Shown: one piece after another, positions 12,641-43,203 of the stretch
Layout of the letters: each line of letters opens with the position of its first letter
Numbering within the stretch: the first letter of the stretch is position 1
Origin: Trichostrongylus colubriformis
Lineage: Eukaryota; Nematoda; Chromadorea; Rhabditida; Trichostrongylidae
NCBI GenBank assembly: GCA_963978905.1
Contig: OZ022258.1
Location: 30,012,716-30,076,715 of the forward strand
Direction of reading: 5' to 3'
Length of the DNA stretch: 64,000 nucleotides
Translations under genes and position numbers: made by a program
Notes under the pieces: generated by a model
What the model was told of the DNA's origin: nothing
The model's database searches: none
Seen by the model: the letters and a program-made list of their open reading frames with translations, nothing else

Positions 12641-15029
12641 CTTTTCACAAAGACTTCACCGTCGTCGGTCTAATGGCTGCCAAAACCTCAGTGATGTATA
12701 TAAGGCTCCAGTTATGCACGCAGGAAAACAGTAAAAGGGGTTTATGACTTCTGTGGATCGATGAAAAACGTACTCCTCCTTTTGACCCTTTGATTTAATT
12801 TTCCAGTGAAATCCCCTATATGTCTGGAATGCGACTTTTGCTGTAATCTCATCTATCCATCGAATGTCTTGGGTTTCTTCTGTCCTTAGAGTCTCGATTA
12901 AAACTACCCTGCCCATAAAACAGAGGCCTGCCAGAAAATGACTGGTAAGCCGTTAGCGGTTTTTGGTTTTCCATTTCGCAATAACTGGCGATGAACGACC
13001 CGTACAAATTGTTCAATTGCACCGATCCATTACTATTTAAGCGACTGAGAAGCCGTTAACATGTGGGTAAGATATTCGGATACACTCACTTATTATAAAT
13101 TGCTCAAGTGTTTGCCCCTTTTACATGCAAACTACTGCATGTGCGGTGCTCTGAAGATATCGCCGACTCGGTTTGGGATTGCGTTGGAACATTGTTTAGT
13201 TCATCTTGAAATCGTGAAAATCCATCTCTAATGTTCTGTTAAGTCTCCTGCTCGCCTTAGACACTATTTGGTGCGAGCAGAAACGTACTTATAAGAAACT
13301 ATAAGAACAAACTTTATCACTCTCTGAGACCTTCAAGAAAAAAGGGCTCCCTTGAGTTCCTGGCAATGGGATGAACGTCGAACCATATACCTCCGAATAG
13401 TATGTAAGAACGAGTCGCTAACCCCTTTTCTCAAGGTAGATTTTAAAAATGTTCAGCAAATTTTCGTCCCGGCAAATGGAATAGTAAATGAAGCAGAAGG
13501 AAACTTACTCTCAAAAGGATTTCATGGTCAAGTCGGCCAGTCAGTCAACGGCCAATATACGCAGTCCCTGTCTCTCGCTAAGAAATGTGGAAGTTTATTC
13601 TGTATCTCTAGCAAGATTACAAGAATGTGTCGGGGGAGAATAAATAAATATTGTCGATCTGCTCTCTCCCGTAAGCTTGAGGCGTTTCAGAAGCTTTTCC
13701 GTGGATTCAACTGTCGCATGAGTTGCCGACTTGTGTATAAGAAAGACATTTGTGTTTCACTTTCTGCTTGGATTCTCGGTTAGTTCTCAGCAAGCATTAC
13801 ATTTGCAACCAATCTCCATCTTTTTGCAGAGAGGTTACTTCTTGGATATAGTTTTTAGTGACGGCTCACTTTAATTCAGTTAGTTTGAGCAAATTTGTAA
13901 AGCACAGCAAAAAGGTTGTCCAGGTTTATCTTCTATTTTTCATTAGATCATTCAGTGGAATCATTCTCAGAAATCACTCATATAACTCTATTTCTGAGAC
14001 CATCAATATGGAACTTTTCATTTTCTGTTTCACATCATGAGAAAAGTAAGAACCTCTAGACTATTCAGTTATTGAGTTATGCTATAGGTTTTTTCCGTTT
14101 CTCATCCTATGTGTTTCACAATATTCCTCGCCTTCTTTCGACAAAATCTATCTGCATATGCTTTCGACAGAGCTTTTTTGCTATTCTACAGTACCACGTT
14201 ATTGATTTTTGAATCATTCAGCTCTTTAATATTGGCTTACAAATGCATCATTCCCCACTCATGATTCAATGTGGAGCGGAAAAGTTCAACTTTCTTAACT
14301 TCGATGTGCCAAAAGTGCAGATTTTTGCTTTTTGAAGACACAGTTCACTACAATTTGGCTATCCTAGCTCCATCTGTGAGCAAGTAGCCCTTTTCGCGAT
14401 TGAAAAGTGTGTATTTCTAAAGGGGTGCAAAGATGTGTAGGAACCGCGTACAGCTATCACATGTATGCCGGCGCTCTTCGTTTCAAGATGGGCGACACCC
14501 ACCATCGATTTGACCAGCGGAGCAACGATCGCAACTACTTGGCAGAAAAGGTTTATTCTCGGTTTTGATTAGATAAGATCGACGAAAGTGTGGTAGCAAA
14601 GGCAAGAGGAAGGTACTTTTGCTGAATTTCGGATGATAACATCAAGCAGAGAGCTTTGCAAAAGCCTGCATCTATGCCACGAACTCATCCAAGCCGAAAT
14701 CGGAAAGATTCCAATTTGTAAGACTTCTAGAGTTTTTTTTCAAATTGCCCCCTTCGCTTTCGAGCTTTTCGATATCCTCAGAAACCTGACTAAGAGCGAC
14801 GACCAACAGGAAACGATTACATACACCCTTTTTTGAAGGATGGAAGAAATCTTGTTAAATACAGAGAATAAGACAGGAACGAACTTATTGCACAAACGTT
14901 ATCAAATATAAGCGCACTACGTAATTCTAGATACCAATATCAGGTCAACTTTTCTCATGGATCCTCTCATGGTTGCTGAATGAGAACTGCCGAGTGTCGA
15001 AGCCAAACATTAATAATCTATCAATGGCT
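12641..15029. other. Unassigned open frames; no gene supported
   Basis: Two frames are long enough to mention: 12656-12916 (-, 86 codons) and 13352-13783 (+, 143 codons, Cys- and Lys-rich in its second half). Neither shows a recognisable domain, signal peptide or membrane segment. Neither has convincing splice sites at both ends. They may be exons of unknown genes or transposon debris. Confidence 0.25.
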
Positions 15030-15753
15030 AACGTCACCTCATCCACGCATCTTCAGTTCCTTTACAGAGTCGCTTCAGAACACATCTGCTTTGACAGGAT
15101 AAGCAGCTGCGCCAGAAATATCTTCCCATCGGAAGTTTTTCGGTTCATTCTAACAAGAAATCTCCGCTCTGTACACGCTGTGCGAGGCCATGGACAATGG
15201 TAGCCTCGCTCAAATCACTGCCACGGGTTCGTGATCAGCGCAGACGGCCTGAAATCCTTCGTCTAGGTTGGTTCAGCACGCTTGTTCGTTAAGCACAGCA
15301 AAAGGCTCACCACCTTCCACGAGTGATCAGCAAATGGGTAATTAAACCAATGATGCGCAGGTATACTTGTGCAAAATTGGATTATGAATTACACCTGGGC
15401 AGCGCGCTCCTGCGCGTTTATGTGGCATAGTGGTTCGTCAAAAAAGCTTCTTCTGTCTGTTCAAGGCCACCCCTACAATCTCCGTAAAAAATGCTTCTTC
15501 CGTCTATTTAAGGCCACCCCTCGAAATTCACATGAAAATTTTGAAATCATCAAAAATGTTGTGGGATTGAACGGACTCCTAACGTCACGTCATCCACGCA
15601 TCTTCAGCTCCTTTACAGAGTCGCTTCAGAACACATCTGCTTTGACAGGATAAGCAGCTGCGCCAGAAACATCTTCCCATCGGAAGTTTTTCAGTTTATT
15701 TTAACAAGAAATCTCCGCTCTGTACACGCTGTGGGAGGCCATAGACAATGGTA
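15030..15753. repeat. 173-bp direct duplication flanking an LTR-like fragment
   Basis: 15030-15202 and 15581-15753 are near-identical 173-bp segments (AACGTCAC...GACAATGGTA, a handful of mismatches). Between them, 15339-15580 is a fragment of the unit of the tandem array at 17-19 kb (GGGTAATTAAACCAATGATGC onward), with a short internal duplication of the CTTCTTCTGTCT phrase. The second copy is cut exactly where the AT-rich reverse-transcriptase sequence begins. Confidence 0.75.
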
Positions 15754-16383
15754 CATTTTCATTCAAAAAGTTGGAGTACCACAAGGAAGCAATGTTAGTC
15801 CCCTATTAGCAGATTTAACTTTGTCCTATTATAAATACGTTTACTCTCTAAAACAAATCAAAAGCACCAATTCTAACTTTAAGTTTTTTAGGTATATGGA
15901 TGACATTTTAGTTCTACACAACACAGATTCTATCACTACTCTTAACAAACTTAATATGATATACAATAATATATCAAAATTAGAAACTACACACGAAAAT
16001 GACTATAACTGTAATTATTTAGACCTAGAAATTTTAATTAAAGACAATAGGATTACTACCAAAATGTATAACAAAACAGACAATTTCGAATTCCCCATCA
16101 AAAGATTTCCTAATATATCCACTAACATTTCCTCCAAAATCAAACACAATACCATATATACAAAAAAAAACTAAGAGTAGCAAGAACCTGTACCTATCAA
16201 AAAGATTTCATAGAAAGACTACAACACACTTATAGACAATTACATAATTCTGGATATAAATTAGAAACCTTTTTAACCTGTCTTACTAAATGCCTATATC
16301 TAAATGATTTTATAAGGTACAAGTTCAAATTAGTTAACCCTAAAGAGCTTCATAACTACTTTATAACTCCTTTATCTGATTAA
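15754..16383 (+). pseudogene. Reverse-transcriptase fragment, Penelope-related (possibly Naiad-type)
   Basis: The open frame enters from the duplicated repeat and encodes GVPQGSNVSPLLADL (RT motif 4/B), then FRYMDDILVLHN (catalytic YMDD, motif C), YLDLEI and FPIKRFPNIS. It stops at 16172-16174 because an A-run is one base short. The next frame continues with the same protein type to a TAA at 16381-16383. The order of motifs resembles a family of intron-poor metazoan RT proteins that I associate with Penelope-like elements of the Naiad type, whose endonuclease lies at the N-terminus. That family assignment is from memory and uncertain. Motifs upstream of GVPQG are missing, so it is 5' truncated as well as frameshifted. 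Its A+T content is much higher than its surroundings, which supports recent arrival from a different source. Confidence 0.65.
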
Positions 16384-16916
16384 TTTTTAATGCTCTATCT
16401 GTTTAATCGGTAACACTATTAAAAAATTTTTTGTCATTAGTTATTTACACATTGTTTACGCATTGTTGCTATTACCATTAAAGCACTCACCACTCTTTGA
16501 TTCTCTGAATCCATGCTCACAAAGTTGACCGTTCCTATAAATAACTGTACATGTTGTTTATGATGATTAATATGAACTTGAAATAATGAGTGAAATGAGT
16601 CAAAGTAACTCAGAGTCGAATGACAACACTAATTGTAACATTGGTGAATAACACGTGATAACGTTCAATAGACAAAACAACTTTCATTTCTCATTTTTCA
16701 TTTACACTCATGAAGATAAGGAACGGTTGCTTTATGGTGAGTCAGTTTTTTCTCCAAACAAACAATTGCATAAGGCTAATAAAATATTTAGATCTACAAC
16801 TAACATACATAGATCCAAACATAACTTGATACTTGATTCTTTTTAATTGACTCACACTCAGTTCGATTTACATACTTTTCAGTAAATATTACAAAAAAAT
16901 TACGTAAAACATGCCT
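16384..16916. other. AT-rich 3' tail of the RT element
   Basis: A+T-rich DNA without a gene continues in composition from the RT fragment and probably forms its 3' untranslated part. A 63-codon frame at 16655-16846 has no recognisable feature. The composition changes near 16910, where the hammerhead-like structure begins. Confidence 0.4.
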
Positions 16917-17000
16917 ACCTCCCTTCCCTTACTGATGAGTACAGAGGGAGGTTATCTCTAGATTTAACCTCCGTCTAAGGGCCCGTGCGAAACGGAGGTT
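16917..17000 (+). ncRNA. Two-hairpin hammerhead-ribozyme-like motif with swapped segments
   Basis: Hairpin 1 has arms ACCTCCCT (16917-16924) and AGGGAGGT (16945-16952). Its loop reads CCCTTA-CTGATGA-GTAC (16926-16942). Hairpin 2 has arms AACCTCCGT (16966-16974) and ACGGAGGTT (16992-17000). Its loop reads C-TAAGGG-CCC-GTGC-GAA (16975-16991). The loops are complementary: CCCTTA with TAAGGG (stem I) and GTAC with GTGC (stem II, one G-U). With hairpin 2's stem as stem III, all the invariant hammerhead residues are present: CUGAUGA, GAA, A15.1-U16.1, G10.1-C11.1, and cleavage base C17 at 16975. In every known hammerhead the strand order is a circular permutation of I-core-II, II-GAAA-III, III-C-I; here the last two segments are exchanged. 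Activity is not shown. Confidence 0.6.
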
Positions 17001-17080
17001 GAACCATTTCTTTGCTCCTTCCCCCCTAAAATCTTTTTAAACATAGTTTCTTTGTTTACAATTGCTTATTTCTTCCTATA

Positions 17081-18949
17081 CATTGTTAAGAGTAATACGT
17101 GAAAACACAGCCGGCTTTTATAGAGCCCTTCGAGGTTGCTGACTGAGTTGTTGCTACAGATTCAATTTGTTGAAACAGTTTTCGAAATTCCGTAGGCACA
17201 CTTGTTTTCTCTTTTCCGGAGAGGTTTCAAAATTTTGCTGACCACAACATGAACTAGGTCATATTAAATGGACCTCAAACTTGGGTAATTAAACCAATGA
17301 TGCACAGCTATACCTGTGCGAAATTGGATTATGAATTACACCTGGACAGCGCGCTTCTGTGCGTTTATGTGGCGCAATGGTTCGTCGAAAAAGTGCTTCT
17401 TCTGTCTATTTATGGCTATCCCTCGAAATTAGCATGGAAATTTTGAAATCATCAAAAATGTTGTGGGATTGGACGGACTGCTACACATTGTTAAGAGTAG
17501 TACGTGAAAACACAGACAGCTTTTGTATAGAGCCCTTCGAGGTTGCTGACTGAGTTGTTGCAACAGTTTTCGAAATTCCGTAGGCATTCTCGTTTTCTCC
17601 TTTCCAGAAAGGTTTTCAAAATTCTGTTGACCACAACATGAATTGGATCATATTAAACGGACTTGGGTAATTAAACCAAGATGCACAGGTATACCTGGCG
17701 AAACTGGATTATGAGTTACACCAGTACAGCGCGCTTATGTGCGTTTATGTGGCGCAATGGTTCGTCGTAAAAGTGCTTCTTCTGTCTGTTTGTGGCTATC
17801 CCTCGAAATTCGCATGTAAATTTTGAAATCATCAAAACTGTTGTGGGATTGAACGGACTGCTACACATTGTTATGAGTAGTACGTGAAAACACAGACAGC
17901 TTTTGTATAGAGCCCTTCGAGGTTGCTGACTGAGTTGTTGCAACAGTTCTCGAAATTCCGAAGATATTCTCGTTTTCTCCTTTCCAGAGAGGTTTTCAAA
18001 ATTCTGTTGACCAAGTGCTATGCAGTGCAACAGTAGCGAAAGAACGGAGTGAAACGGCAAAATACCCGAGAATTAAGTTCCCCGAATGGGGTCATATTAA
18101 ACGGACTTGGGTAATTAAACCAATGATGCACAGGTATACCGGTGCGAAATTGGATTATGAATTACACCTGGACAGCGCGCTCCTGCACGCTTATGAGGCG
18201 CAATGGTTCGTCGAAAAAGTGCTTCTTCTGTCTACTTATGACTATCTCTCGAAATTCGCATGAAAATTTTGAAATCATCAAAAATGTTGTGGGATTGAAC
18301 GGACTGCTACACATTGTTATGAGTAGTACGTGAAAACACAGACAGCTTTTGTATAGAGCCCTTCGAGATTGCTGACTGAGTTGTTGCAACAGTTTTCGAA
18401 ATTCCGTAGGCATTCTCGATTTCTCCTTTCTAGAAAGGTTTTCAAAATTCTGTTGACCAAGTGCTATGCAGTGCAACAGTAGCGAAAGAACGGAGTGAAA
18501 CGGCAAAATACCCGAGAATTAAGTTCCCCGAATGGGGTCATATTAAACGGACTTGGGTAATTAAACCAATGATGCACAGGTATACCGGTGCGAAATTGGA
18601 TTATGAATTACACCTGGACAGCGCGCTCCTGCACGCTTATGTGGCGCAATGGTTCGTCGAAAAAGTGCTTCTTCTGTCTATTTATGGCTATCCCTCGAAA
18701 TTCGCATGAAAATTTTGAAATCATCAAAAATGTTGTGGGATTGGACGGACTGCTACACACTGTTAAGAGCAGTACGTGAAAACACAGACAGCTTTTGTAT
18801 AGAGCCCTTCGAGGTTGCTGACTGAGTTGTTGCAACAGTTCTCGAAATTCCGAAGATATTCTCGTTTTCTCCTTTCCAGAGAGGTTTTCAAGATTTTGTT
18901 GGCCACAACATGAATTGGTTCATATTAAGCGGACCTCAAACCTGGGAAA
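17081..18949 (-). repeat. Tandem array of LTR-like units
   Basis: Four successive units, each containing GGGTAATTAAACC (17283, 17665, 18109, 18555), are spaced 382, 444 and 446 bp apart. A partial unit precedes them from 17081. Each contains the same phrases (CACAGACAGCTTTTGTATAGAGCCC, GGTTGCTGACTGAG, GGTTTTCAAAATTCTG). The longer units differ by replacing a CACAACATGAATTGG segment with a 74-bp segment (18015-18088, 18461-18534). On the minus strand the first unit has a TATAAAA box, and 17270-17295 matches 26 of 26 bases of the 3' part of the LTR at 43.1 kb. I infer decayed LTRs arranged head to tail in minus orientation. Open frames across the array (for example 18162-18506 -) are repeat-derived, not genes. 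Confidence 0.6.
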
Positions 18950-19071
18950 GGCACGGTGCACTTTAGCACTGACAAAAACAACAACAGCCGGCCAGGCCGG
19001 CTCTTGTTTTGCATTGGAAGCCGGCGTGGCCGGCTGTTTTGGTTTTCGCCAGTGCTAAAGTGCATCGTGCC
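18950..19071. mobile_element. Foldback MITE, outer element
   Basis: Arms GGCACGGTGCACTTTAGCAC (18950 onward) and its complement (ending 19071) enclose a second hairpin made of two CCGGC/GGCCGG blocks. The element directly abuts the LTR-like array. Its right-flank sequence is split by the Mutator-like MITE at 19077, so the true inverted repeat may extend a few bases beyond the insertion. Confidence 0.7.
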
Positions 19072-19316
19072 TATCCGGGTGTATATCGCTAGGACAGAAA
19101 CGTCGCGTGGCCGTTTTCGGCACGTGACGGGATGGTGCGAGCTATGCGCGCCGTATTAGTTGAGTCCTGAAGCGATTACGCATAGAATGAGGCGTAGAGC
19201 ACTGTCATCGCTTCAAGACCCATCCAATACGGCGCGCATAGCTCGCACCATCCCGTCGCGTGCCGAACACGGCCACGCGACGGTTCTGTCCTAGCGATAT
19301 ACACCCGTGCCTATCC
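19067..19316. mobile_element. Mutator-like MITE with 10-bp target duplication
   Basis: A 230-bp element (19077-19306) has terminal inverted repeats of about 100 bp (19077-19176 and 19207-19306, a few mismatches) that begin GGGTGTATATCGCTAGGACAG. It is flanked by the perfect 10-bp direct repeat GTGCCTATCC (19067-19076, 19307-19316). Long arms with a 9-10 bp duplication indicate the Mutator superfamily. The ends start GGGTGT, like the element at 3822. No transposase is present. Confidence 0.85.
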
Positions 19317-19602
19317 AAGATGTAAGGCATCAAATTTGCGCGGAACGGCCAAGAGTGAAGTGTGCGACTGCACACTTCACCTCCGCAGTTTGCTAATGAA
19401 ATGCGTTGAGTGAAATAGAATGTTTCATGTCGTCCATTATGTTGCTGTAATCGTCATTTAAGGGGTTTCTTTCTGTTTATTTCTTGAATGTGGATTTCAC
19501 CAGAGCTAAGTATCATGTGTTGTTTGTGACTTATCAAAAGGTTTATTTATTGCTCTCGCTACATCGTTTCGTGTTCATTATGAGTGTGCGATTCCGGAGA
19601 TT

Positions 19603-19675
19603 TCTAATCCACAATATCCATTTCTGGGACACCTGGGAGTGTCAGTGCCCCAAAAAATGGGTATTGTGGATTAGA
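19603..19675. repeat. Hairpin element, 73 bp
   Basis: TCTAATCCACAATATCCATTT at 19603 and its near-perfect complement ending at 19675 form a long hairpin around CACCTGGGAGTGTCAG. It could be a small MITE or a stem-loop within a larger repeat. Confidence 0.65.
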
Positions 19676-19710
19676 AGGGCACGTCCTCGGATCTTTGGTA
19701 GGAAGGGGAA

Positions 19711-19777
19711 CTTAATTCTCGGGTATTTTGCCGTTTCACTCCGTTCTTTCGCTACTGTTGCACTGCATAGCACTTCG
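19711..19777. repeat. Inverted copy of the 74-bp variant segment of the array
   Basis: This is the reverse complement of 18015-18085 and 18461-18531 (TGCTATGCAGTGCAACAGTAG...), nearly perfect, about 1.2 kb away in opposite orientation. It indicates that the array's variant segment belongs to an element that also inserted or inverted here. Confidence 0.7.
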
Positions 19778-20327
19778 ACTTGTATGTGGTTCTGTCATGT
19801 TCGGATGTGAATTGCATATCGTGTACTTTACATTTCATTCAATCATACTATTGGGAATAATGTATATGATGTCCACATAACTTGAAGCCTTCCACTGCAT
19901 CTTACTTTCTCATTATCAGGGGTAATCCATTCGCAAAAAGCTCCATTTGTCCGTTCTTTCATGCGATTTTACTCACAGTATATGCTAAACGTAATTAGAG
20001 CCGCTATTCGGACCATTGATTCCTGACATGTCACATGTCACGAAGAAGGAAATTCAAGTGATAAATCAATAGCGTGATTATCGTCCTTTTTCGAATGCTT
20101 GTGTTGAATTGAGAGGGAACTTTTGCTTGAATACTCGTCCTGTAGTTATCTAAGGGGCCAGCCTATCAGAGAACTTTCACTTATTTTCATATAGTTCAAA
20201 GCCTAAAACATAATAAAAGCACCTTTTCCTTATTCTTTGTCATAACAGTTAAGGGGAATTTTCACTCTATGCATTTCACGATCGCTTGACTTTCGACTGC
20301 TATTAAATCTCTTTTACGAAGTATTTT

Positions 20328-20549
20328 GGGTCAAATAAGGGAGGAGGGGGGAGAGACGCAAAATTTCCACCTACGTCAAAGCTCCTTTCCCTCCCTAGAT
20401 TTAGACTGACGCAGATGAGACCTATGCTTTGACGGATTCTTTTTCATGTAGCAGGAGGGGTATCATCTTTAGCCTGAGCCTGGGGAGGGAAAAGAGCTTC
20501 GACGTCGACGCGAAGTTGCGTCTCCCCCTCCCCCGACCTTATTTGACCC
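20328..20549. mobile_element. GGGTCAAATAAGG-family MITE, copy 1
   Basis: A 222-bp hairpin with perfect 13-bp ends (GGGTCAAATAAGG and complement) and longer imperfect arms containing GAGACGCAA and AAGCTC(C)TTTCCC. Related copies lie at 27846-27952, 28738-28822 and 56502-56726. Confidence 0.75.
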
Positions 20550-21680: not shown

Positions 21681-21805
21681 ACCCTCAGGGCAAGAAGATA
21701 CACTACACTTTTAGCTCCCATGTTCTCCCTTGTTGAAACCTCGGCATAGTTGTCGATTGTTTTTCTTTTGTATGCCAACACGAGGTTAGAAGTGGAACCT
21801 GTATT

Positions 21806-21844
21806 GGCCTAACGTTTCGATCTTCTCGTCTTCTTCAGAGGCCT
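21806..21844 (-). ncRNA. Hammerhead ribozyme motif, 3' copy (weakened stem II)
   Basis: On the minus strand this reads AGGCCT-CTGAAGA-...-GAAACGTT-AGGCC. The AGGCC arms pair (stem I), the core CUGAAGA and GAAA are intact, and stem III is the minimal A-C/G-U type known from Penelope-like elements. Stem II reads GAC against ATC, so one pair is lost compared with the copy at 23350. Confidence 0.6.
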
Positions 21845-22086
21845 GAAGATGGCTCGAAGCTCTTGATTTGCAAAGTATCCGAACAAACGCCTCCTCCCCT
21901 CTAGCGTTTCCGGCGTCGTTTCGAGATCGCTCTCGGACAACCCGGTAATGAAGCAATAGACTCACCCAAGATTCCACCAGCGGAGCAGTAGCTCACGCCT
22001 CAATCACATGTGTCAGTAAAGGCGAATGAGTCTCACTTGACTCGATGTTCCTTATACGGCAGAAACTACTACCGCACACGTCGCCT

Positions 22087-23184
22087 TTACTGTAACCCGC
22101 ACTGTGATACGAAAGGCAGGAGTTCATTGCTAATCGAAAGACACTCGTTTCGGTTGTTCATTCGTGGCTTTCTTGTGGAAATCCAGAATGACTCTAACAC
22201 TTTCCGTGACGAAACTTCCGTCTCGTACGCCAAAATAGAGCACATAACATCAAAGTCGCTTCCGTTATGCTCCTCAACTTTATGCTTGCCAAGCGGGGTT
22301 GTTATAACACCACGCCTTTTCCCAGCTAGATGTTCTTTGACGCGTACAGCAAGTACCCTTCCCGTTTCTCCAATATATGTGCTATTACAAGTCCTACATT
22401 GAAGCTCATAAATAACGCAAGCCTTATCACAATCTCCTGGCTTCCCGTAAGGACAAATAATGCAGTTTTTCGTTATGCACTGCTTATCGTACAGTCTGTT
22501 GCGAACAAATTGTCGTTTGATGTTGTCGTTAGGGATATTCACTAAGACAACATCATTTTGTAACTGTGCTCGAACAATACTGCGGTTTATTGCAGCGCTA
22601 ACCCTGTCGGAGATGAACGGAATGCATAAAGGTAGTTTCCCTTGGAGTGGCGTTTGTCGTCGTTGACCAGCATATGACGTTCGTTGGTGCGGTGGTACCG
22701 CATAGCCATTTTCAGTAGCAATGCACAGAGCTAAACGTTTTGATTCCTGCCGTTCCTCACCACCAGTGCACATACTGGTTGCTGTTGCAAACATGTTCTT
22801 AATGACCGCACGTTTCACAGCAGCAGGGTGAGCAGACGTCGCATGAATCAAGATATTTTTACAGCTAGGCTTGCGGTACCACTTTACCCTGGTAATGCCA
22901 CCAAACAACTTGACCTGCGTATTAAGATATGGTAGCCACCCATGCTTTGGTACTTCCCGTGTAAGCCTAATGTACTGCGACTGCTCATTTAATAAGCGGA
23001 AACACTCGTCCATTTCGGATTGTGTTGATGTTACTATGAAGCAGTCGTCGATATATCTACAGTACAACAGAGGTAAGCGAACGAGTACTGGTTGTTCTAT
23101 TCTGCTCATGAAGCAGATCGCAAGTACAGGCGCTAGTCGTGTAAGCCTAATGTACTGCGACTGCTCATTCGCCTTTACTGACAC
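22087..23184 (-). CDS. Penelope-like RT C-terminus plus GIY-YIG endonuclease
   Basis: A 365-codon frame. The first 16 residues come from the rearranged junction; the genuine sequence starts at about residue 17. The reverse-transcriptase motif C is RYIDD (residues 43-47). After the thumb and linker come cysteines at 241, 244, 252 and 256, then VIYELQC, CNSTYIGETGR (265-276), R281 and the EH pair at 284-285, typical of the Penelope GIY-YIG domain. The family copies RNA at a nick made by this nuclease. Motifs before YIDD are absent, so at least half the protein is missing and the copy cannot move by itself. The remaining frame has no stop, which implies recent insertion. Confidence 0.85.
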   Translation of the reverse strand: MSVKANEQSQYIRLTRLAPVLAICFMSRIEQPVLVRLPLLYCRYIDDCFIVTSTQSEMDECFRLLNEQSQYIRLTREVPKHGWLPYLNTQVKLFGGITRVKWYRKPSCKNILIHATSAHPAAVKRAVIKNMFATATSMCTGGEERQESKRLALCIATENGYAVPPHQRTSYAGQRRQTPLQGKLPLCIPFISDRVSAAINRSIVRAQLQNDVVLVNIPNDNIKRQFVRNRLYDKQCITKNCIICPYGKPGDCDKACVIYELQCRTCNSTYIGETGRVLAVRVKEHLAGKRRGVITTPLGKHKVEEHNGSDFDVMCSILAYETEVSSRKVLESFWISTRKPRMNNRNECLSISNELLPFVSQCGLQ

Positions 23185-23349
23185 ATGTGATTAAGGCGTG
23201 AGCTACTGCTCCGCTGGTGGAATCTTGGGTGAGTCTATTGCTTCATTACCGGGTTGTCCGAAAGCGATCTCGAAACGACGCCGGAAACGCTAGAGGGGAG
23301 GAGGCGCTTGTTCGGATACTTTGCAAATCAAGAGCTTCGAGCCATCTTC

Positions 23350-23388
23350 AGGCCTCTGAAGAAGACGAGAAGGTCGAAACGTTAGGCC
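23350..23388 (+). ncRNA. Hammerhead ribozyme motif, inverted 5' copy
   Basis: AGGCCT (23350-23355), CTGAAGA (23356-23362), a GAC/GTC stem II closed by GAGAAG, GAAA (23376-23379), CGTT and AGGCC (23384-23388). This matches the minimal hammerhead with very short stem III described for Penelope-like elements. Stem II requires one bulged A after the core. It is antisense to the element's ORF because this end is inverted. Confidence 0.7.
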
Positions 23389-23455
23389 AATAAAGGTTCC
23401 ACTTCTAACCTCGTGTTGGCATACAAAAGAAAAACAATCGACAACTACACTTTTA

Positions 23456-40505: not shown

Positions 40506-41104
40506 TGACGGTAAACCGTCCACGATTTGTACTTGCGCATTTTTCATTTACTTACTCCTTTTTTTCACTTATTCATTTATTCATATGGTATGATTGGAAA
40601 CTTACTTTGCTTTTCTCTGAGCTTTGTCATTATTTGAACTTTTCCATTTGTTGCAATCAATGAGATACTCAGCGAGCTAGAAGCGTCGATGTTTTGATCA
40701 GAGGGCTTGATTACGGACCCTCAGCCTCGCGCTGCGGCTTCTCCGTATAAAAGGGCAGTCATTCTAGGAGGAGGCATTCTGATCGCGTACCGACCATTCG
40801 CGTTTCTTCTCGCGTAGCAGTCGGACTTTTCTACATTCTTAATGTATAGAAACTTTCCTTTTCTCAGTATTGAAGTGGTGCTTTTATACTCATATGGTGC
40901 TATGCTTTAACCTTTTGGGGTTCTGTTCAAAAAGGTTTGATTTGGGCAATTTTCACTTCTTTTAATTCGTGAACATTTGTTCGATTTTTACTTAGTTTAG
41001 AAATAAAGGTTTAATTACCCATGTTTGAGGTCCTTCTCCACCACACACACACAAATCCGCGTGGCAAAAATCAGTTGGCGAGTTTGGTGTAGAGAGGGAC
41101 TTCA
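40506..41104 (+). repeat. 5' LTR
   Basis: Starts TGACGGTAAACCGTCC and ends GAGAGGGACTTCA, giving TG...CA boundaries. It contains TATAAAA at 40746-40752 and AATAAA at 41002-41007, followed by GGTTTAATTACCC. These fit a U3 promoter and the R poly(A) signal. Confidence 0.9.
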
Positions 41105-41106
41105 AT

Positions 41107-41118
41107 TGGTGCATCGGC
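41107..41118 (+). promoter_or_regulatory. Primer-binding site for tRNA-Gly
   Basis: TGGTGCATCGGC begins two bases after the 5' LTR. It is complementary to the 3' end (GCCGATGCA plus CCA) expected for a nematode tRNA-Gly, the likely primer for minus-strand synthesis. The tRNA sequence is from memory. Confidence 0.7.
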
Positions 41119-41345
41119 TTGTTCCAAGTGGTTACACGAAGCGAACTTCAGGTTGGTTTACAACTTTAAAAGTGGCTGTCTTTGCATGCAAGCTTTGCTT
41201 GTTTTTGTACGCATTCGTTGCCAATTTCGGGAATCAATCGAGTTTGCTGGGGTGACTCATCCTTCGCGTACACCTTCTTTGTCTCGAAAAGCTCTCGCGT
41301 TGGGTCATTGAAAATCGTTATTCGGGTGTCTCAGAAACTCTCGCG

Positions 41346-42503
41346 TTGGACTATTGGGGGTTGAAACTCACCATAAAAATGACCTCACAACTTTCTTCCC
41401 ACAAAAGATTGTTAACGCGACATTGTAACAAATTGGAAACGGTACTCTCGCGTTTCAAAGAAGAGAAATCAGAGACCTTGAAGGCTTCGGACGATAACCG
41501 TACTCCGGGGTATGAAAGGAGCTCCCGGAAAAAGCTTCAAGAGGGACTTGGAGCAATTAAGGCATGCACGTCAAAAATTGAAGAGCTATGGCAAAAATAT
41601 GGATACGCGTTATCCCAGATAGACAGCCCTCAAAAAACGGAGGTTGACGATTATGAACTGTATTCCACGCAAGCCTCTTAGTGCGGCTCTCGATTACACG
41701 GTCATTTTGGAGGGAAGACTGCACGCGTACCAGTTGATCGAGCTGCGGATCGCGTGCCACAGGATCGAGCTGCGGATCGCGTGCCACAGGAACGAGCTGC
41801 TGATCGCGTGCCCCAAGATCGAGCTGCGGATCGCGTGCCACAGGATCGAGCTGCGGATCGCGTGCCACAGGAACGAGCTGCTGATCGCGTGCCCCAAGAT
41901 CGAGCTGCTGATCGCGTGCCACAGGATCGAATCGAACAGGAGGATCGTCGACACCCTCCCGTGCGGGACGAAAGAGAGCTGGAGCGAGTGATCGGGAATG
42001 TGCAGGAGGAAATCGACCACATGGAGAGAGCGATGGATAATTTCCCGTATAGGAAGAGAGAGAGCTTCTCTAGAGGAATCAGACCGTTGAACCAATGCTG
42101 CTTCTGTAGCGTGAAGGGAGAGCATTTTTCCGACTCGTGTCGAACGGTAACTGACGGACAGGACAGATGGGAGATCATGCTGGAACGCTACTTCTGCCAG
42201 TACTGTCTGAACAGATGTGGGATGTACGACCTCTGCCAATACAGATACAAGGAATGTTTTTATTGTGAGCGCGTAAGAGGCACACCCTTCGAGTACCTGA
42301 TTCCGCGTGAACCTCATCATACGGCTCTTTGTCGAGTTCCGGATCAAAGAGGAAGAGCCCGTGCGCGTATCGAGGAAGCCAGGGAGGAGCTACAACGCCT
42401 TCTAGGAGAGCTGTCATTGGCGATAGTACTGCGAAGGCGGGAAGCGGAGAGAAGGCAGGAGGAGGAGAGGCAAAGAGGACACGACGGGGCAGCCAATCGC
42501 TAG
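41346..42503 (+). pseudogene. Gag-like ORF interrupted by one amber stop
   Basis: The first part (41346-41681) is Lys/Glu-rich and helical, typical of a Gag N-terminal region, and ends at TAG 41679-41681. The same frame resumes directly, runs through a 9-residue repeat (about 41736-41935), and continues to the stop after 42503. The second part has a knuckle CCFCSVKGEHFSDSC, further paired cysteines (CQYC, CFYC), a terminal H-x4-C, and then an Arg/Glu coiled coil. Gag of this kind coats element RNA in particles. The stop may be suppressed, may separate two products, or may be a disabling mutation; the young LTRs make recent mutation or read-through both possible. Confidence 0.7.
41736..41935 (+). 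repeat. 27-bp coding minisatellite in Gag
   Basis: About seven tandem 27-bp units (GATCGAGCTGCGGATCGCGTGCCACAG and variants) encode VPQDRAADR or VPQERAADR. Units alternate in a higher-order pattern (Q-D, Q-E), which indicates duplication of blocks. The other frames through the repeat are also open, which accounts for several overlapping long frames. Confidence 0.85.
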
Positions 42504-42605
42504 AGGAGCGGAGAAGACTGGAGGGACCCCAGCAAGATAAGGATCTGTAGTAGCTTGATTGTTGCTGATTTGTTGTTAGATTGCCTTGTTTGTTGTCGGG
42601 CGGAG

Positions 42606-43203
42606 TGACGGTAAACCGTCCACGATTTGTACTTGCGCATTTTTCATTTACTTACTCCTTTTTTCACTTATTCATTTATTCATATGGTATGATTGGAAAC
42701 CTACTTTGCTTTTCTCTGAGCTTTGTCATTATTTGAACTTTTCCATTTGTTGCAATCAATGAGATACTCAGCGAGCTAGAAGCGTCGATGTTTTGATCAG
42801 AGGGCTTGATTACGGACCCTCAGCCTCGCGCTGCGGCTTCTCCGTATAAAAGGGCAGTCATTCTAGGAGGAGGCATTCTGATCGCGTACCGACCATTCGC
42901 GTTTCTTCTCGCGTAGCAATCGGACTTTTCTACATTCTTAATGTATAGAAACTTTCCTTTTCTCAGTATTGAAGTGGTGCTTTTATACTCATATGGTGCT
43001 ATGCCTTAACCTTTTGGGGTTCTGTTCAAAAAGGTTTGATTTGGGCAATTTTCACTTCTTTTAATTCGTGAACATTTGTTCGATTTTTACTTAGTTTAGA
43101 AATAAAGGTTTAATTACCCAAGTTTGAGGTCCTTCTCCACCACACACACACAAATCCGCGTGGCAAAAATCAGTTGGCGAGTTTGGTGTAGAGAGGGACT
43201 TCA
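42606..43203 (+). repeat. 3' LTR
   Basis: Near-identical to the 5' LTR, with one T fewer in the early T-run. It is preceded by GGGCGGAG, a short polypurine tract, and followed by the AGGAG target duplication. The 26 bases at 43107-43132 recur inverted at 17270-17295. Confidence 0.9.

Follow-up and report, generated by a model that had tools for sequence, protein, structure and literature searches.

The interval from 16917 to 17003 of a 64,000-nt stretch of Trichostrongylus colubriformis DNA (contig OZ022258.1; the whole stretch is referred to hereafter as the window) raises the question of whether two neighboring hairpins make up a hammerhead ribozyme and, if they do, what carries it and what it might do there. 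All of the invariant hammerhead residues are present in this interval on the + strand, to which every coordinate in the next paragraph refers, in three blocks that occur in the order C, S, G. A first-pass annotation, made from the letters of the sequence, had listed these residues and its coordinates proved correct to the base.

The first hairpin is built on a helix of 9 bp, ending in a U-G pair, between 16917-16925 and 16944-16952 (9 of 9 positions paired). We call it the tying helix; it joins stems I and II at their distal ends. Its loop holds the 5' strand of stem I (CCCUUA, 16926-16931), the catalytic core CUGAUGA (block C, 16932-16938) and the 5' strand of stem II (GUAC, 16939-16942; GCAC is commoner among the copies read). 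Stem III forms the stem of the second hairpin and measures 12 bp (16963-16974 with 16992-17003) when the A15.1-U16.1 pair is counted. Its 5' arm is the 3' strand of stem III (block S, 16963-16974) and is closed by U16.1. There follow C17 (16975), the 3' strand of stem I (UAAGGG, 16976-16981, forming 6 bp with 16926-16931), a linker of three nucleotides from stem I to stem II (CCC, 16982-16984), the 3' strand of stem II (GUGC, 16985-16988, forming 4 bp with 16939-16942, one of them U-G), the core GAAA that includes A15.1 (block G, 16989-16992) and the 5' strand of stem III (16993-17003). Cleavage is predicted after C17 by analogy with hammerhead numbering. CUGANGA, GAAA, U16.1 and H17 are therefore all complete in the window copy, and stems I, II and III are 6, 4 and 12 bp long. 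The lengths first proposed were 6, 4 and 9 bp for these stems, of which the first two stand, and 8 bp for the stem of the first hairpin, which exists but is one pair longer.

The order of the blocks agrees with the earlier statement that the arrangement is not a circular permutation of the type I, II or III hammerhead, and the coordinates bear out the picture of two hairpins with pairing loops in which stems I and II are tied together at both ends. The claim that this is a new hammerhead topology was mistaken. The topology is already known, because it was described and named type CSG by Eckert et al. in 2023 from two metagenomic sequences (PMC10085705). According to the accessible part of that paper, both examples were cleaved in vitro at the predicted site, at 0.004 and 0.026 per minute, CSG-1 and CSG-2 are exclusively metagenomic, and the evidence for the biological relevance of type CSG was called weaker, with few covariation events. 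Compared by description with CSG-1 and CSG-2 as given there, the window motif shares the C-S-G order, the full set of conserved core residues, the pseudoknotting of the stems and a helix uniting stems I and II; unlike them, it is repeated as a family within the genome of a nematode and lies inside a Penelope-like element. The type-SGC RNAs (HRIMA-1 and its variants), as presented in the same portion of the paper, have the same two hairpins, a linker that is typically 3 nt and a helix between stems I and II, and the HRIMA-1 motif has a fixed stem I sequence, as is the case here (PMC10085705). In type SGC, however, the S-G hairpin comes first and the C hairpin second, and those RNAs are mainly from metatranscriptomes. 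For one type-SGC RNA it is reported there that disruption of any one of the four helices reduced cleavage to a trace at most and that compensation restored it (PMC10085705). In the literature searched, which was mostly non-subscription, the only papers listed for noncircular hammerhead permutations were PMC10085705 and two on RNA-superposition software.

Stems I and II are short, which favors a chance resemblance of two unrelated hairpins. We compared the site with simulated sequence. A loose search that allowed all six block orders found four sites in the window, the CSG site with 22 stem pairs and three others with 11, 8 and 8. Among 17,790 first-order Markov windows, 9 sites had at least 22 stem pairs over all six orders. 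When the tying helix was counted too, the window site had 31 pairs, whereas the most at any CSG site in 22,640 simulated windows was 27; none of these windows reached the observed pairing, consistent with the expectation of the first-pass annotation that a chance match would be very unlikely. In addition, many genomic copies retain the motif, as does a second family with flanks that look different by eye. The simulations and the genomic copies together refute a chance origin, to which we assign a negligible probability.

Plain-hairpin folding was better than that of shuffled sequences on both strands (z = -3.24 on the + strand and -2.57 on the - strand), so folding energy alone cannot pick the + strand; it is the core residues that do so. 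The minimum-energy fold consists of the two hairpins without the loop-loop stems, pairs that the program is unable to represent. Such a fold might be expected if the hairpins served some other purpose, as a protein-binding structure or one that primes reverse transcription, with the hammerhead match being secondary. The location of the motif near the 3' end of its element would fit this, as would the almost invariant sequence of stem I, which could be a binding site. We consider this explanation very improbable, because it does not predict that CUGANGA, GAAA, U16.1-C17 and exact loop complementarity should occur together. RNAalifold favors a shifted pairing, in which the stem I strand is set against the 3' arm of the tying helix; this is possibly an inactive alternative fold. 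Between 16920 and 16930 CCCTT is present twice in tandem, and the second copy, which is the stem I strand, can pair with the 3' arm of the tying helix.

Other genomic copies that keep the core and the loop complementarity, for which the first-pass annotation had suggested a search, are present in number. The genome searched comprised 331 Mb in 52 contigs. The C-block pattern CTGATGAGTACAGAGGGAGG gave 195 matches (97 + 98) with up to two mismatches and the S-G pattern TAAGGGNNNGTGCGAAACGGAGGTT gave 253 (135 + 118) at the same threshold, with 0 matches for each of the reversed controls. A pattern across both arms of stem III gave 149 matches with up to one mismatch and 0 for its control. The genome contains well over a hundred copies of the host element and its ribozyme.

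To the window copy we aligned 30 of the 48 loci L004 to L051, for a total of 31 copies. The loci left out were L004, which is the window itself, L047, whose first half is rearranged, eight near-duplicates of L008 (L010, L011, L016, L017, L024, L025, L031 and L044) and eight that were damaged or lacked one half (L005, L009, L012, L018, L026, L028, L043 and L048). Standard pairs were found in 90.1% of the pair cells of the 31 aligned copies, a percentage that is raised by the omission of damaged copies and in a set that favors conserved C blocks because the loci were found by the C-block pattern; when partners were slid by 1-3 columns the value was 35.7-52.9%. Cells changed on both sides numbered 25, compared to a mean of 9.0 in shuffled alignments, and 0 of 500 shuffles were as high. 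There were 11 pairs with a double change; the shuffled mean was 6.4, 4 of 500 shuffles were as high, and a slide of -1 gave 8. Further pair types came to 33, compared to a shuffled mean of 29.3, and 21 of 500 shuffles reached that number. By these last two measures covariation is not striking. Double changes were located in stem III (6 of 12 pairs) and the tying helix (4 of 9 pairs), while stems I and II were nearly invariant, the former having a single double change and the latter lacking any. Because stems I and II scarcely vary, covariation backs stem III and the tying helix, and the case for stems I and II is made by their conservation and their exact place beside the core. In the second family (L020, L035 and L037) the flanks are different by eye and stem III has another sequence, yet the pairing is kept; in L020 and L035 stem III carries four double changes relative to the first family with pairing maintained.

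The motif is part of the 3' region of a repeated Penelope-like retrotransposon. A 5'-truncated copy of this element occupies 15752-17074 of the window on the + strand, as delimited by tblastn with the open reading frame (ORF) of the L025 unit and by a flanking repeat. It matches residues 781-918 and 915-989 of the L025 ORF in two frames at 85% identity, and its 3' end, placed by eye from the flanks of other copies and the flanking repeat, is about 100 nt past the predicted cut. The first of the two frames (15755-16171, + strand) is a reverse transcriptase fragment; the ORF that encloses it gave an RVT_1 match of 1.4e-8 (35.2 bits, cut-off 29.6), and its relatives include proteins of Cooperia oncophora and Ancylostoma ceylanicum (three of six matches). 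The ORF of the L025 unit was just below the RVT_1 cut-off (27.3 bits, 3.5e-6).

Complete units were found on contig C7, where five C-block matches are 6182-6185 nt apart, which indicates head-to-tail units of about 6.18 kb. In this array 300 nt are identical between two units at a spacing of 6184 nt; the first unit is without its 5' part, and the full units after it hardly differ in the parts compared. The unit of the L025 array contains an open frame of 989 residues, with an N-terminal region followed by the reverse transcriptase. The stop codon precedes the ribozyme by about 0.67 kb, and the unit junction follows it by about 130 nt. Pfam reported no GIY-YIG domain in the L025 ORF, but its N-terminal region aligns with the GIY-YIG domains of relatives. 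Six relatives were scanned and PF01541 was found near the N-terminus in two of them, P0011 and P0026, at the region to which L025 aligns. An endonuclease before the reverse transcriptase is thus seen by Pfam in P0026 and by alignment only in L025, an order as in the Naiad/Chlamys group of Penelope-like elements with an N-terminal endonuclease, to which the element may belong. No reverse transcriptase was present in the 2.2 kb upstream of one copy of the second family.

The state of the window copy, which is 5'-truncated and has a frame break in the reverse transcriptase, would suit a degenerate relic, that is, a ribozyme that worked in an ancestor and is now an inactive passenger in the 3' region of the element. 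So would the 23 that differ from CUGANGA, UC and GAAA among 62 distinct sequences with both halves recognizable; the other 39 have this core. A core residue has been lost in 10 of the 31 aligned copies. A full core (with any permitted base at position 17) together with 6 of 6 pairs in stem I and 4 of 4 in stem II is found in 28 of the 62. Against decay, the core and all of the stems are intact in the window copy, two copies of the L025 array share their ribozyme sequence with the intact L008 in a unit that has the 989-residue open frame, and the pairing of stem III has been maintained while its sequence changed between the two families. We therefore consider a relic unlikely. The motif is very probably a type-CSG, noncircularly permuted hammerhead ribozyme that a nematode Penelope-like element carries in its 3' untranslated region.

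By analogy with the published noncircular hammerheads, it would most likely act by self-cleavage, trimming or separating the transcripts of the element. The element transcript would fold as two hairpins, and the first loop (stem I strand, CUGAUGA, stem II strand) would pair with the second (stem I strand, CCC, stem II strand). This loop-loop pairing would close the hammerhead core and allow a cut after C17 (16975). Changing the conserved G in CUGAUGA is reported to prevent cleavage. Head-to-tail transcripts would be divided by the cut into unit RNAs of about 6.18 kb, whereas in single copies the cut would remove the last 100-130 nt or so together with any read-through.

To look for traces of cleavage in the worm, the 5' ends of inserted copies were considered. 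In the first 30 exact S-G copies, homology ended within 3 nt of the predicted cut in two (L081 and L091) and further upstream in 28. There were 18 copies with a base other than C at position 17; 16 of these were read and four start at the cut (L091, L100, L138 and L143). L147, another copy with a non-C base, likewise lacks upstream homology, although its downstream match is short. All nine copies that have C at position 17 without a preceding T were read, and three of them (L148, L153 and L154) had no clear upstream homology. A comparison pattern set 3 nt upstream of the cut had seven matches, of which only L110 was read. With these patterns, which catch unequal fractions of copies, there was no clear excess of element 5' ends at the predicted cut, either among the exact S-G copies or with the variant and comparison patterns, and the argument was dropped. 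A T is present two bases before the predicted cut in five of five of the non-C copies named above (L091, L100, L138, L143 and L147, the last with its short match), perhaps as a result of target preference.

The 28 copies that continue upstream of the cut argue that the usual template for reverse transcription is not a linear RNA cut at that site. One reading of these data is that tandem transcripts are cut by the hammerhead, the unit RNAs are re-joined into circles, and the reverse transcriptase copies round the circle from the 3' tail. This would explain why insertions read through an intact cut site in most cases examined, and also why, in the one array, a 5'-truncated first unit is followed by near-identical full units. 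A multimeric transcript that stays uncut accounts for these observations too, and we put forward the circular route as a speculation that is probably wrong. If it were true, the element would be an autonomous retrotransposon that moves via ribozyme-made circular RNA.

Hammerheads are reported to be regular in Penelope-like elements (PMC6155905 and PMC11167929, from the accessible parts of each), where they are described as usually minimal, without helix III (PMC6155905). As in those elements, including PAc (PMC11167929), the hammerhead of T. colubriformis lies inside an element that forms head-to-tail arrays. It differs from the minimal forms as described there in its 12-bp stem III and its CSG order, and it follows the reading frame, whereas in PAc the motif and the beginning of the reading frame overlap (PMC11167929). 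In the part of the PAc study available, hammerhead mutants had no effect on insertion in vitro and no cleavage by the PAc ribozyme was seen in the absence of added protein (PMC11167929). An earlier report of a CSG hammerhead in a Penelope-like element was not among the papers listed from the literature searched, outside of which lie most subscription journals, and no paper that treats Penelope-like elements, hammerheads and Ancylostoma together was listed. What is new is that the CSG topology has its home in a nematode's Penelope-like retrotransposon, within the 3' part of the element. A nematode genome assembled in long contigs gives the CSG permutation a natural home, a large set of natural variants and a candidate role. 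It also shows that hammerheads in Penelope-like elements extend beyond the minimal form of earlier descriptions, and their value to these elements becomes a question that can be tested directly.

Standard models missed the motif, which is unsurprising given its permuted and pseudoknotted order. No Rfam hammerhead model matched the window at its gathering score, and the ten Rfam matches to 14500-20500 at E values up to 10 included no hammerhead. A search of the whole genome with RF00163 gave no match, but 73 of 46,992 candidates were scored and the model was silent in all 14 controls as well. In viral contigs, the pattern of stem I plus core had 0 matches; a second pattern picked out nine viral stretches, and a scan of prokaryote genomes another ten. 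Neither these 19 stretches nor the viral contigs L001-L003 contained a CSG site with at least 4, 3 and 4 bp in stems I, II and III, respectively. Minimal sites of other orders in L161 (GCS, 4/4/4) and L174 (CGS, 4/3/4) were taken for chance. Relatives of the reverse transcriptase are present in L001-L003 (37-39% over residues 3-55).

The sequence around the window copy is itself repetitive. A 175-nt direct repeat (15028-15202 and 15579-15753, 95% alike) adjoins the 5' end of the retroelement copy, and a tandem array with spacings of 446 and 380 bp flanks it on both sides (15335-15581 and 17076-18905). Within this array of spliced-leader-like repeats, 17206-17295 on the - strand gave a sub-threshold match to the Rfam SL1 model (34.5 bits, gathering score 75). 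At L061 (G000:C3:5108000-5116400) a ribozyme copy has a 3' flank that matches that of the window copy, namely the SL1-like repeat; either the locus has been duplicated or the element has inserted twice at one place. A second Penelope-like fragment (22087-23190, - strand) has its reverse transcriptase before GIY-YIG and lies mostly between 284-nt arms that are 98% complementary (21747-22030 and 23164-23447). Finally, 40560-42958 looks like an LTR-type element: a pair of direct repeats, each of 300 nt and 99% alike, is separated by 2.1 kb and encloses an 81/27-bp tandem repeat that sits inside open frames (41736-41930).
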